A stretch of DNA of 64,000 bases from an uncultured Pseudomonadales bacterium (GTDB lineage: Bacteria; Pseudomonadota; Gammaproteobacteria; Pseudomonadales; Azotimanducaceae): NCBI GenBank assembly GCA_958296295.1, contig OY282460.1:2666001-2730000 (forward strand). The letters are read 5' to 3'. The position numbers and the translations under genes were made by a program. Positions 44,867 through 50,436 of this stretch are shown here, piece after piece. A model generated the notes under the pieces. It made no database searches. It had not been told where the DNA came from and was given only the letters and a program-made list of their open reading frames with translations. Numbering within the stretch: the first letter of the stretch is position 1; each line of letters opens with the position of its first letter.

Positions 44867-45448
44867 TCAGGCCAGATCGGTGGCGAGAGACGCCACGCTC
44901 TCGGCGGTCAGTGTGGCTTGGCAGCGCAATTCGTCGTGGTCTATGCCGAACGTCACCGGTTGCCCGCCGCGCACCGCGTCCACCTGCCTCTGCGATAGCT
45001 CGAAGCGCAGAAAATGCACGGCGGCGGTCTTGTCGCGGCTGGTGCGTTGCAAGTCGTCGTTGGCGAACGCGAGGGTGCGGGGCAGATCGCCCGCCGCAAG
45101 CCAAACGTGGTGCTCCACGCCCGGCATGCGGGCAAGCGCGGCGGCGCGTTCCCCGGCGTCCTCGTATTCGATCAGGAAGGTCGCCTTCCAGTTCCTGCCG
45201 TCCGGGATGAGCGCGTTGTAGGTGTCGATCTCTTGGGCGATGGCCGCCGGCTCGAAGATGCGCTCCACGCGCAGCATCTCTTGCACCTGGTATTTCATGG
45301 TGAGGAAATCCTCGAACAGCAGCGTCGCGTGGTCTCCCAAAGCGATTCGGCGGGGTTTCTTGTGGGCCAGCACGCGCTCGCGGAACGCGCCCCGCTCCAC
45401 GGCGTAGCGCTCCAGGCTCCAGAGCTGCTCGCGGCTCAGCTTGTCCAT
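44867..45448 (-). CDS. DUF3501 family protein
   Basis: A 193-residue protein with the DUF3501 pattern: MDKLSREQLWSLERYAVERG, FRERVLAHKKPRRIALG, LLFEDFLTMKYQVQEMLRVERIFE, ALIPDGRNWKATFLIEY, and KTAAVHFLRFEL near the C-terminus. The biochemical function is unknown. DUF3501 genes regularly accompany a rubrerythrin and a GlpC-like Fe-S protein, as here, so a role with them in peroxide or redox chemistry is likely. It lies 36 bases after the Fe-S protein. Confidence 0.88.
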   Translation of the reverse strand: MDKLSREQLWSLERYAVERGAFRERVLAHKKPRRIALGDHATLLFEDFLTMKYQVQEMLRVERIFEPAAIAQEIDTYNALIPDGRNWKATFLIEYEDAGERAAALARMPGVEHHVWLAAGDLPRTLAFANDDLQRTSRDKTAAVHFLRFELSQRQVDAVRGGQPVTFGIDHDELRCQATLTAESVASLATDLA

Positions 45449-45484: not shown

Positions 45485-46813
45485 TCAGATGCCGTACGCG
45501 CGGCGCAGCATGGAGATCGGATGCGTGGCGCGGGTTTCGTCGCCCAAGCCGTGCTCGATCATCCGGCCGGCCATCGGGCAGTCCGAGCCGTAGGCGTCCG
45601 GCTTCGCCTCGCGCACCGCGCGCACCACCGGCCGGGCGATCTTCATTGCGGCGGCGTAGGTCTCCGCCTTCACGGCGTAGGTGCCGTCGTGGCCGGAACA
45701 GCGTTCGATCATGGTCACGCGGGTGCCGGGGATCAGCGCGAGGAACTCGCGGGTGCGCCGGCCGACGGCTTGCACGCGCTGGTGGCAGGCGGCGTGGTAG
45801 GCCACTTCGCCCAACGAATTGGCGAAGCGCGTCGAGGCGAGGCCGTCCCGATGGCGGGCCACGAGGTACTCGAACGGATCGAAGAACGCGGCGCCCACTT
45901 TCGCCACCTGCTCGTCGCCTGGAAACAAGAGCGGGATCTCCTGCCGGTACATCAACGTGCAGGACGGAACGATGGACATGAGGTCGTAACCGGCTTCCAT
46001 CGCCTCCAGGAACACCGGCAGGTTGGCGTCCTTCTTGGCGGCCACGGCGTCCAAATCGCCAAGTTCCAGCTTCGGCATGCCGCAACAGCCGGCGTCCGCC
46101 AGCAGCTTGACGGCGACGCCGTTGTGCCGCAACACGCGCACCAGATCCTCCACCACGTCCGGCTCGTTGTGCTCGCCGTAGCAGGTGACGTAAACCGCCA
46201 CCTTGCCGGTGGTGCCGGCGCCGGGCGTGGGCGTCACGTCCTCGTACACGGGCGCGACGCGCTTGCTGGCGGTGCGGGTTTGGAAGGTCGGCAGAGGCGC
46301 GTCCCGGTGGATGCCGGCCACCCGCTCGCCGATGCGGCGGAGGAGATTCGTCTTCGCCGCGCCGTTGGCCATCTGGCCGATGCCTGGCGTGGAGGCCACC
46401 TTGAACACCGGCGAGGTGCTGGTGATGAGGCGATCGCGCCAACGCGGCTTCTGCTCCTTGAACCGGGCCGCCTTGGCGCGCAGCATCAGATGCGGAAAGT
46501 CCACGGCCCAGTCGTGGGGCGGCAGGTACGGGCACTTGGTTTCGGCGCAAAGGTCGCACAGGTAGCACTGGGCCACCACCTTGTCGTAGTCCGCCTTGGC
46601 CACGCCGTCCACCTCCATCGTGTCCGATTCGTCGACCAGATCGAACAAGGTGGGAAACGCCGCGCACAGGTTCACGCAGCGGCGGCAACCGTGGCAAATG
46701 TCGAACACCCGTTCGAGTTCGGCGTCCACGGCGTCGCGGTCGTGGAAGTCCGCGCCCTGCCAGTCGATGGGCAGGCGCTTGGGCGCTTGGAGATTGCCTT
46801 CGGCGATGGGCAT
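45485..46813 (-). CDS. GlpC/heterodisulfide-reductase-like Fe-S oxidoreductase
   Basis: A 442-residue protein with two 4Fe-4S ferredoxin-type clusters near the N-terminus ([17 protein letters not shown] and [16 protein letters not shown]) and two CCG domains behind them ([11 protein letters not shown], and HAACHQRV...[11 protein letters not shown]). This is the layout of GlpC and HdrD-type electron-transfer subunits. It lacks a flavin or membrane anchor and probably passes electrons to its neighbour, the rubrerythrin (46848-47264), which needs a reductant. Middle member of the rubrerythrin - Fe-S protein - DUF3501 operon. Confidence 0.87.
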
Positions 46814-46847: not shown

Positions 46848-47264
46848 CTATGCCAGCGCTTCCAAAGCTCTTTGGAAGCGGTTGGCGTGGGATCGCTCGG
46901 CCTTGGCGAGCGTCTCGAACCAGTCCGCGATCTCCTCGAAGCCTTCTTGGCGCGCCGTCTTGGCCATGCCCGGGTACATGTCCGTGTACTCGTGCGTCTC
47001 GCCGGCGATGGCCGCCTTCAGATTGTCGCCGGTGGCGCCGATGGGCAAGCCGGTGGCCGGATCACCCACGGCCTCCAAGTACTCCAGATGGCCGTGCGCG
47101 TGACCGGTCTCGCCTTCGGCGGTGGAACGGAACACGGCGGCCACGTCGTTCTCGCCTTCAATGTCGGCCTTGGCCGCGAAGTAGAGGTAGCGGCGGTTGG
47201 CCTGGGATTCGCCGGCGAAGGCGTCCTTCAGGTTTTGCAGGGTTTGGCTTGCCCCGAGTTGCAT
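46848..47264 (-). CDS. rbr1: Rubrerythrin-family diiron peroxidase, copy 1
   Basis: A 138-residue four-helix-bundle protein: [58 protein letters not shown] and [17 protein letters not shown] supply the paired E-x-x-H/E ligands for a diiron site. It lacks the C-terminal rubredoxin domain of classical rubrerythrin, so an external electron donor is needed. Rubrerythrins reduce hydrogen peroxide. It is 129/138 identical to the second copy at 48448-48864, counted directly. An OxyR box lies just upstream, and the Fe-S protein and DUF3501 genes follow. Confidence 0.9.
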
Positions 47265-47293: not shown

Positions 47294-47299
47294 CACGAT
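47294..47299 (-). promoter_or_regulatory. Candidate -10 of the rbr1 operon
   Basis: TATCGT on the minus strand, with TGGCAT 16 bases upstream as a weak -35. The OxyR box ends next to this -35, the arrangement expected for OxyR-activated promoters, which usually have poor -35 elements. Confidence 0.35.
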
Positions 47300-47322
47300 A
47301 CCCCGAGGCGCGGCGAATGCCA

Positions 47323-47359
47323 GTTGAATCTCTCTATGACAACGATAGGCGCGGACTAT
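47323..47359 (-). promoter_or_regulatory. OxyR binding site upstream of rbr1
   Basis: On the minus strand the order is ATAG (47356-47359), 7 bases, CTAT (47345-47348), 7 bases, ATAG (47334-47337), 7 bases, CAAC (47323-47326). The OxyR consensus is ATAGnTnnnAnCTAT, 7 bases, ATAGnTnnnAnCTAT. Three of four tetramers are exact and all three spacers are exactly seven bases. The site overlaps the oxyR stop codon and sits about 60-95 bases before the rbr1 start. Confidence 0.7.
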
Positions 47360-48252
47360 CGCGCTGGCCCGGAGCGGTGCGCCATCGCTTCGCGCAGCAG
47401 GCGCGTGAGCACCTCGAACAGGGGCGTGCGCGTCGAGCTCGCCCGCCAGCAGATGCCGATGGTGCGGTGCGGCCCGTCGCGGTCCGCGAAGGGAATGTAG
47501 CGAACATTGGGCGGGCCTTGGGCGGCGAGTTCCGGCATCAACGTGACGCCCATGTTCGCCGCCACCATCTGCCGCAAGGTCTCAAGGCTGGTGGCCCGGA
47601 AGCTCTTGTTCTCCACCGCCCTGCTCGACCGGCAGATCGCCAACGCCTGATCGCGCAAACAATGGCCGTCCTCCAACAGCAACACCTGCTCCTGATCGAG
47701 TTCGGCCTCGAAGACGGCTTCCCGCTCGGCGTGCCGGTGGCGCGGCGAAACGGCGAAATAGAAGGGCTCGTCGAAAATCGGCGCTTCGGCCACATCGTCC
47801 AACTGCGCCGGCAACGCGACAATGACGGCTTCCACCTCGGCGCGCTCCAGCTGGCCCAGGATGTCGGCGGTGCGGCCTTCCACCACCTCCATGTCGAGAT
47901 TCGGCAGCCGCGCGTACACGGCGGGAAGCACCAGCGGCAAGAGGTACGGCGCCACGGTGGGTATCACGCCGAGGCGCAAGGTGCCGCCGAGGGGGTCGCG
48001 GTGCTCGCGCGCCAACCGCACCAGGGCGTCCACGCCGCGCAAAACCTCGTTGGCTTGCGCAACGACGCGCCGACCAACCGCTGTCGGCACCACCCGTCTG
48101 CCACGCTCGATGAGGCGCGCGCCGAGCGCCTCCTCCAGCTTCCTGATCTGCGAGGAGAGCGTTGGTTGCGTCACATGGCAGGCCTCGGCCGCCCGGCCAA
48201 AGTGGCGATGTTCGGCCACAGCCACCAGGTACCTGAGGTCGCGCAGGTTCAC
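47356..48252 (-). CDS. oxyR: Peroxide-sensing LysR-type regulator OxyR
   Basis: A 298-residue LysR regulator. The helix-turn-helix is in [20 protein letters not shown] and [16 protein letters not shown], almost identical to known OxyR. The redox switch is preserved: Cys198 in [12 protein letters not shown] and Cys207 in ALAICRSS, nine residues apart as in E. coli Cys199/Cys208. Peroxide forms the disulfide and turns on transcription. GTG 48252 gives the canonical OxyR start; an ATG at 48330 would add 26 residues without homology. It is flanked by two rubrerythrin genes in the same direction; an OxyR box overlaps its stop codon. Confidence 0.95.
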
Positions 48253-48447
48253 ACGCCGCGCGTCACGCGCCGCCGGCGTTGCCGATTCGCTAACCGAGGG
48301 ATCGCGAGTTGCCTGCCCGCCGGACGTCATGCGGCTTGCGCGCCAAGCTCGATCGGGCATCGCGTGGCGAGCGCTGGCGCGCCGCCGCCGACGAGCGGCC
48401 CACGCCCGCCATCGTTTCCGCCGGCGGGCGTTTGTCGCCGGGGCGGT

Positions 48448-48864
48448 CTACGCCATAGCGTCCAGCGCCTTCTGGAAGCGGTTGGCGTGCGAGCGTTCGG
48501 CCTTGGCGAGGGTCTCGAACCAGTCCGCGATCTCCTCGAAACCCTCGTCCCGCGCCGTCTTGGCCATGCCCGGGTACATGTCGGTGTACTCGTGCGTCTC
48601 GCCGGCGATGGCGGCCTTCAGGTTGTCGCCGGTGCCGCCGATGGGCAACCCGGTGGCCGGATCGCCCACGCCTTCCAAGTACTCCAAGTGGCCGTGCGCG
48701 TGGCCCGTCTCCCCCTCGGCGGTGGAGCGGAACACCGCCGCCACGTCGTTCTCGCCTTCGATGTCGGCCTTGGCCGCGAAGTAGAGGTAGCGGCGGTTCG
48801 CTTGGGATTCGCCGGCGAAGGCGTCCTTCAGGTTCTGCAAGGTTTGGCTGGTGCTGAGTTCCAC
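48448..48864 (-). CDS. rbr2: Rubrerythrin-family diiron peroxidase, copy 2
   Basis: 138 residues, differing from copy 1 at nine positions, mostly at the two ends and in the EGVGD/GGTGD turn. All diiron ligands ([46 protein letters not shown]) are retained, and the rubredoxin domain is again missing. Start GTG 48864 has a strong SD (GAAGGGAG). TATGAT on the minus strand near 48897-48902 is a candidate -10. I found no OxyR box here equal to the one before copy 1. It lies upstream of oxyR on the same strand and divergent from the MATE gene. Confidence 0.9.
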
Positions 48865-48981
48865 GTTGGCTCCCTTCTATCGTGGTGCGGGTCGTGATCA
48901 TACAACCCCACGACGCCGCGCGGCCACGTTCGGCATCGCTTGTACAATTCCGTCCCCCTTCTTCCCTTCCAAGGCCACGAA

Positions 48982-50436
48982 ATGCGCCACGCCGCGCTGG
49001 CCGAATTGCGCACGCTCGGCGCGCTCGCCGCCCCCATCGTCATCACCCAGCTCTCGCAGATGGCCATGGGCGTCGCGGACGCGGTGATGGCCGGCAACGT
49101 CAGCGCCACCGACCTCGCCGGAGTCACCCTCGGCGGCAGCCTGTATTGGCCAATCCTGTTGTTCATGCAGGGCCTGGTGATGGCGGTGGCGCCGACCGTT
49201 TCGCAACTGCACGGCGCCGGGCGCACGGGCGAGGCCGGAGCGCATGTGCGCCAAGCGCTGTGGGTCGCCGTGAGCGGAGGGGTGCTGGTCACCATCGCGC
49301 TGCACCACGCCGAGCCTCTCTACCGGCTGGTGGGCGTGGACGAGCGGGGCATTCCGGTCGCGGTCGGGTATCTTGAAGCCGCGAGCCTTGGCTTGACGCC
49401 CCTGCTCGCCTACGTCGCCCTGCGCTACCTGTGCGAAGGCATGGCGTGGCCGCGCGCGGCGATGTGGATCAGCGCCACCGCCTTCCCGCTCAAGGTGGGA
49501 TTGAACTGGATTTTCATCCACGGCTGGCCGGCGGTCGGCTTGCCGGCGCTCGGCGGCGTGGGCTGCGGCTGGGCCACGGCCATCACCATGACCTACTCGC
49601 TGGTGGTGATGGTGTTCGTGGTCTCGCTGTCGCGCATTCGCGCCTCCAACGTGTTCGCCGCCTTCTCGGCGCCCTCAGCTCGGCGAATACGATCGTTGCT
49701 GGCCTTGGGTCTGCCCATCGGCTTCACGCTTTTTTTGGAGCTGGCCTTCTTCTCCTTCGTCTCGCTGCTGGTGGGACGCATAGGCGTCGAGACGGTGGCG
49801 GCGCATCAAGTGGCTTTCAACGTGGTCAGCGTGGCTTTCATGGTGCCGCTCGCCATCGGCATGGCCGCGACCGTGCGCGTTGGCGTGAACGTCGGCGCCG
49901 GGAACACCGCCGCGGCCAGAACATCGGCTTGGGTGGCGGTGGCCACGACTTGCGTCTGGGGCGTGGCCATCGCCACGGCACTCATGGTGTTGCGGCACGA
50001 AATAGTGACCAGCTACACGGACGAGCCGGAGGTGATCCGCCTCGCCGCGGCGCTGCTCGCCCTCGGCGCCCTCTTCCAAGTGTTCGACGCCACCCAAGTG
50101 ACCATCATGGGCGCGCTGCGCGGCTACAAGGACACCCGGGCGCCGATGGTGGTCGCCGCGTTCGCCTACTGGCTGGTTGGGTTGCCGATCGGCTACATCG
50201 CCTGTTTCGGAGACGCCGACGTGGTCGCAGCGTTGAACGCGGCGGTGAATGCGGTGCCGAAATGGGCGCGCGGCCCCGGCGGTGAACTTGCGATCAACCG
50301 CGTCGAAGGCATGGGCGTGCGCGGACTCTGGTGGGGGTTGGTGGCGGGATTGGCCGTCGCCGCCCTCGCCCTCGTGGCGCGGCTGGCCAGAGTGTCCGGC
50401 GATCCGGCGCGGATCGCGCAGCTGCGGCTCCGGTAG
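48982..50436 (+). CDS. MATE-family multidrug efflux transporter (NorM-like)
   Basis: A 484-residue membrane protein with 12 hydrophobic helices in two homologous halves. Half one starts RTLGALAAPIVITQLSQMAMGVADAVMAGN and continues LGGSLYWPILLFMQGLVMAVAPTVSQLHGAG; half two starts LLALGLPIGFTLFLELAFFSF and contains HQVAFNVVSVAFMVPLAIGMAATVRVG. This is the NorM branch, which exports cationic drugs in exchange for Na+ or H+. ATG 48982 is chosen because TACAAT at 48943-48948 looks like the -10. A stretch near residues 405-440 (AALNAAVNAVPKWARGPGGELAI) is a longer hydrophilic loop than usual. Divergent from rbr2. Confidence 0.88.
   Translation: MRHAALAELRTLGALAAPIVITQLSQMAMGVADAVMAGNVSATDLAGVTLGGSLYWPILLFMQGLVMAVAPTVSQLHGAGRTGEAGAHVRQALWVAVSGGVLVTIALHHAEPLYRLVGVDERGIPVAVGYLEAASLGLTPLLAYVALRYLCEGMAWPRAAMWISATAFPLKVGLNWIFIHGWPAVGLPALGGVGCGWATAITMTYSLVVMVFVVSLSRIRASNVFAAFSAPSARRIRSLLALGLPIGFTLFLELAFFSFVSLLVGRIGVETVAAHQVAFNVVSVAFMVPLAIGMAATVRVGVNVGAGNTAAARTSAWVAVATTCVWGVAIATALMVLRHEIVTSYTDEPEVIRLAAALLALGALFQVFDATQVTIMGALRGYKDTRAPMVVAAFAYWLVGLPIGYIACFGDADVVAALNAAVNAVPKWARGPGGELAINRVEGMGVRGLWWGLVAGLAVAALALVARLARVSGDPARIAQLRLR

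Follow-up and report, generated by a model that had tools for sequence, protein, structure and literature searches.

In Escherichia coli-type OxyR operators, such as those of katG, ahpCF and dps, four tetramers at N7 spacing abut the -35 element of the promoter and are served by an OxyR protein with a cysteine pair. The locus described here, found in a window (the whole 64,000-nucleotide stretch of DNA that was analysed) from an uncultured Pseudomonadales bacterium, shares all of these features, but differs in its target, a rubrerythrin-RFO-DUF3501 gene set, in the presence of only one strong site in the genome, and in that the promoter-proximal half-element is degenerate in related rbr sites. 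The same three genes, likewise without a rubredoxin domain, make up the RBR-RFO-DUF3501 cluster of aerobic-type rubrerythrins (Cardenas et al. 2016, PMC5114695), whereas the window carries in addition a second rbr copy and an oxyR gene inserted upstream. That paper does not discuss regulation and mentions neither OxyR nor PerR. As in the window, oxyR is clustered with these genes in Sideroxydans lithotrophicus (DUF3501-RFO-RBR-OxyR; PMC7852563), where the part of the source that deals with the cluster reports the clustering and no operator. The rubrerythrins controlled by PerR or Irr, in anaerobes and in the cases of Bradyrhizobium blr7895 and Rhodobacter mbfA (PMC3413700), have in common with this locus the stress-linked control of a diiron protein but, unlike it, use a Fur-family repressor and a different operator. 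An initial sequence-only reading of this DNA had drawn its comparison with anaerobes and PerR, which is apt only in part, the protein here being of the aerobic, rubredoxin-less type already known to occur with DUF3501 and RFO (PMC5114695).

The genes in the window are arranged in the order MATE, rbr2, oxyR, OxyR box, rbr1, RFO and DUF3501. All lie on the minus strand except the divergent MATE-type transporter gene (48940..50436, plus strand), which takes its name from sequence reading. The rbr1 gene (46848..47264) encodes an aerobic-type rubrerythrin of 138 amino acids without a rubredoxin domain, which resembles solved rubrerythrins and sulerythrin. As had been claimed, it is followed by the gene for an Fe-S protein and then by that for DUF3501 (44867..45448); the former is RFO (45485..46813), a GlpC-like CCG-domain Fe-S oxidoreductase of the COG0247 type, from a family named in PMC5114695, and is the probable electron donor to Rbr1. 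The second rubrerythrin gene, rbr2 (48448..48864), lies on the far side of oxyR and is 93% identical to rbr1 in protein and 89% in DNA.

The box itself occupies positions 47323..47359 of the minus strand, where the letters from 47359 to 47323 read ATAG-TCCGCGC-CTAT-CGTTGTC-ATAG-AGAGATT-CAAC. Scored as the number of letters, out of 16, that match the four tetramers ATAG/CTAT/ATAG/CTAT at N7 spacing, this arrangement (ATAG-N7-CTAT-N7-ATAG-N7-CAAC) reaches 14/16, with the first three tetramers exact, two of four letters matched in the fourth and every spacer equal to 7, so that the half-elements and spacing described at the outset stand, as does the overlap with the oxyR stop codon, whose TAG (47356-47358) sits within the first ATAG. 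The description of the box as well formed holds for tetramers and spacing and less well elsewhere: ATAGntnnnanCTAT, the inner part of the E. coli consensus, is unmatched in both halves, and the adjoining -35-like element is poor. Since these inner letters are weak in related sites too, we do not treat this mismatch as disqualifying for a predicted OxyR operator.

The adjoining gene, oxyR (47356..48252, minus strand), was assigned to the LysR-type regulators by domain and family matches and by its cysteine pair. A GTG start at 48252 is favoured over the ATG at 48360 of a longer frame, because relatives align only from about residue 37 of the ATG frame onward. The protein has a LysR helix-turn-helix and substrate domain, a cysteine pair that aligns with Cys199 and Cys208 of E. 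coli, and matches to solved OxyR structures. Its best NCBIfam match is PRK11151 (OxyR) at 297.7 bits, below the cut-off of 329 bits, which is an equivalog threshold and not a mechanistic feature. Judged by these features, the neighbour of the box is a genuine OxyR-type protein.

A search for the motif upstream of rbr orthologues, named beforehand as a check, covered 117 rbr upstream regions from 80 public genome loci, 35 relatives and the window, the proteobacterial sample being mostly Gamma- and Betaproteobacteria. Sites of at least 12/16 were present in 45 of the 117 regions, against 0.8 expected from dinucleotide shuffles, and sites of at least 11/16 in 60, against 6.2 expected. Across the same loci, with only the rbr orientation counted, 46 sites of at least 12/16 lay no more than 200 bp upstream of rbr and the other 795 kb held 14, which makes such sites 113 times as frequent before rbr as elsewhere. 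OxyR control of the aerobic-type rubrerythrin is thus, on the evidence of these predicted operators, widespread. This qualifies the suggestion that such a regulon is rarely described: no description of OxyR control of an rbr-RFO-DUF3501 operon was found in the largely open-access literature examined, but the control itself is no oddity. That OxyR has a conserved target in this operon, whose annotation as a regulon member is new although the kind of system is known, is well supported as an inference.

The related sites also reveal a promoter context. In 44 of them, columns that do not contribute to the score are conserved, namely a T at position 38, an A at position 29 and a TATACT-like hexamer at positions 60-65. 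The corresponding -10-like element of the window, TATCGT (47295..47300, minus strand; box positions 60-65), begins 22 nt past the end of the box, in register with the consensus -10 of the 44 sites by column profile. A weak -35-like element, TGGCAT (47317..47322, minus strand), abuts the box, and 80% of related sites have a T at position 38. On the basis of this conserved T and the hexamer at 60-65, the box is predicted to abut the -35 element, the position of an activator. A poor -35-like sequence such as TGGCAT is what is expected of an activator-dependent promoter, and a generic promoter scan found no sigma-70 promoter scoring at least 9/12 at the box promoter. In most related sites the promoter-proximal half-element is degenerate (AT-N2...C-R-A-W, often ATTG...CAAT or ATNN...CRAW), which makes the CAAC of the window typical.

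The box also keeps company with its presumed regulator. Of the operon-bearing relatives, the 16 that have a canonical OxyR (at least 52% identity) all possess a box of at least 11/16, as do 3 of the 19 that lack such an OxyR (Fisher p=3e-7, with kinship ignored and the 11/16 cut picked after the scores had been seen); at a cut of 12/16 the figures were 11 of 16 and 2 of 19. Two of the three exceptions (G035 and G051) possess a more distant OxyR-like protein. In phylogenetically independent contrasts, 4-5 of 5 pairs agreed and none was opposite (p 0.06-0.125, the pairs being too few for significance). A link to peroxide comes from Burkholderia pseudomallei, in which bpss1837-1839, annotated as hypothetical, ferredoxin and rubrerythrin, rise together after 10 min in 100 uM H2O2 (values 3.31-3.37) in a partly sigma-E-dependent manner (PMC4175613). 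Gene order makes these the probable DUF3501-RFO-RBR triplet, and, given the sigma-E dependence, a second regulator may contribute there. Two environmental Burkholderia carry a box of 11-12/16 upstream of the rbr-RFO-DUF3501 operon.

These observations bear on whether the site might be used by another LysR-type regulator with T-N11-A geometry, or by OxyR as a repressor. Such operator geometry is common to LysR-type regulators, and in Corynebacterium diphtheriae a catalase gene is repressed by OxyR (PMC3306370). Against this, the box co-occurs with canonical OxyR and abuts a weak -35 element in the position of an activator, and the probable homologous triplet of B. pseudomallei is induced by peroxide (PMC4175613), so that we consider use by another regulator or by a repressor very unlikely.

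The oxyR gene adjoins rbr in 12 of 43 box-bearing loci; elsewhere the box is found upstream of rbr with oxyR at another location or convergent downstream of DUF3501. This recurrence argues against a site that mainly regulates oxyR itself, or marks its 3' end, with rbr1 lying downstream incidentally. E. coli OxyR represses its own promoter, and the box in the window overlaps the oxyR stop codon, but the promoter side of oxyR (48240-48470) has no OxyR box (best 8/16), and a site serving oxyR in this way is highly improbable.

That a G+C-rich genome produced the resemblance by chance, for which the lack of the box in same-genus relatives might speak, can scarcely be credited, given that no site with three or fewer mismatches arose in any of 100 shuffles of the window or was found in the rest of the 4.33 Mb genome, and that the box recurs at the same place before orthologues. 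The runner-up position in the window scores 10/16, and a search for a second strong OxyR target across the genome with two further patterns yielded only matches with two to three mismatches. We therefore regard the box as genuine and as a predicted OxyR operator. Separately, a weaker match to the box pattern occurs twice in identical form, 2.9 kb apart (G000:C1:1125317-1125353 and 1128244-1128280; L154 and L155), which suggests a repeated stretch.

Conservation of the tetramers holds across the family and beyond, but fails among close relatives: seven sister species of the same genus with rbr-RFO-DUF3501 have neither box nor canonical OxyR, and within the genus only the genome of the window has either. 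As the sisters that lack the box lack canonical OxyR too, a refutation from the genus alone was set aside, the box following the presence of OxyR. Some sisters (L156-L162) encode a divergent OxyR-like LysR protein of 40-43% identity, GHCLRGHTLDVC, with a tyrosine in place of the second cysteine in L157, L159 and L162.

A TATACT-like promoter hexamer is present in most of the seven sisters, and at least three of them have a directly divergent MATE gene. Through much of the family, by tblastn synteny, MATE is divergent from the rbr-RFO-DUF3501 operon with its box, and oxyR is convergent downstream. The MATE neighbour marks the ancestral rbr position in genus and family. In trees, the RFO of the window groups within its genus, and its OxyR groups with another genus, g34 (100/100), which suggests a horizontal gain of OxyR; a constrained placement with g7, the nearest genus in the RFO tree, was only marginally rejected (p-AU 0.052). 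The simplest reading, of which the trees are no proof, is that oxyR and operator were probably gained locally, together with the rbr duplication. Upstream of rbr2 there is no OxyR box (best 8/16), and we infer that rbr2 is basal and rbr1 inducible. The rbr2 upstream sequence TTGTATGATCAC resembles the promoters of the sister species, a genus-type promoter.

A second class of rbr promoter emerged from the same regions. A 15-bp palindrome, TTAGA-N5-TCTAA, which resembles Fur, Irr and PerR operators, takes the place of the OxyR box in 31 of the 117 (about 0.9 expected at a score of at least 9/10) and is found together with it in only one. Perfect 10/10 copies lie 28-150 bp upstream of rbr in L037, L038, L039, L041, L042, L046, L050, L051, L053, L054, L058, L064, L066 and other loci. 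In none of the 31 palindrome loci does oxyR adjoin rbr, and a motif regex found no Fur-type gene near them. In the window, neither rbr1 nor rbr2 has an upstream region that scores at least 9/10 for a PerR/Fur-type operator (7-1-7 or TTAGA-N5-TCTAA). It is about an even question whether, in the sampled Proteobacteria (mostly Gamma- and Beta-), the aerobic-type rbr operon stands under one of two near-exclusive regulators, OxyR through the box or another regulator, perhaps of the Fur family, through TTAGA-N5-TCTAA, with OxyR control gainable locally as a regulator-plus-operator unit, as would be illustrated by the catalase-less species of the window, in which a duplicated rbr has one basal and one inducible copy.

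Searched for KatG-type peroxidase (PF00141) and heme catalase (PF00199), this 96% complete single-contig genome yielded neither. It encodes a single peroxiredoxin with a 1-cysPrx_C domain, and near that gene the best match to the box reaches only 9/16. Given these absences, rubrerythrin may be a main inducible peroxide scavenger here.

In light of the textbook-type box, and of the same site before the same genes in many proteobacteria, peroxide very probably switches on the rbr1 gene set directly. An OxyR tetramer from the adjoining upstream gene would bind the four half-elements, H2O2 would convert Cys199 and Cys208 to a disulfide, and the oxidised protein would engage RNA polymerase at the weak -35/-10 elements that adjoin the box and so activate rbr1-RFO-DUF3501; Rbr1 would then reduce peroxide at its diiron site, with electrons probably arriving via RFO. 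One species would probably have acquired the OxyR-plus-box unit, with rbr duplicated around it, in a genus that otherwise has no box at its rbr promoter. We hold this account as a whole, comprising the operator, the peroxide-driven activation and the local gain, to be highly likely. In many Proteobacteria the OxyR regulon would then include a diiron peroxidase system that has received little study, and a function in peroxide defence would be predicted for RFO and the unnamed DUF3501 protein. The account would also offer a testable reason for the retention of OxyR in a species without a recognisable KatG or heme catalase, and a case in which regulator and operator were apparently gained together within one genus.
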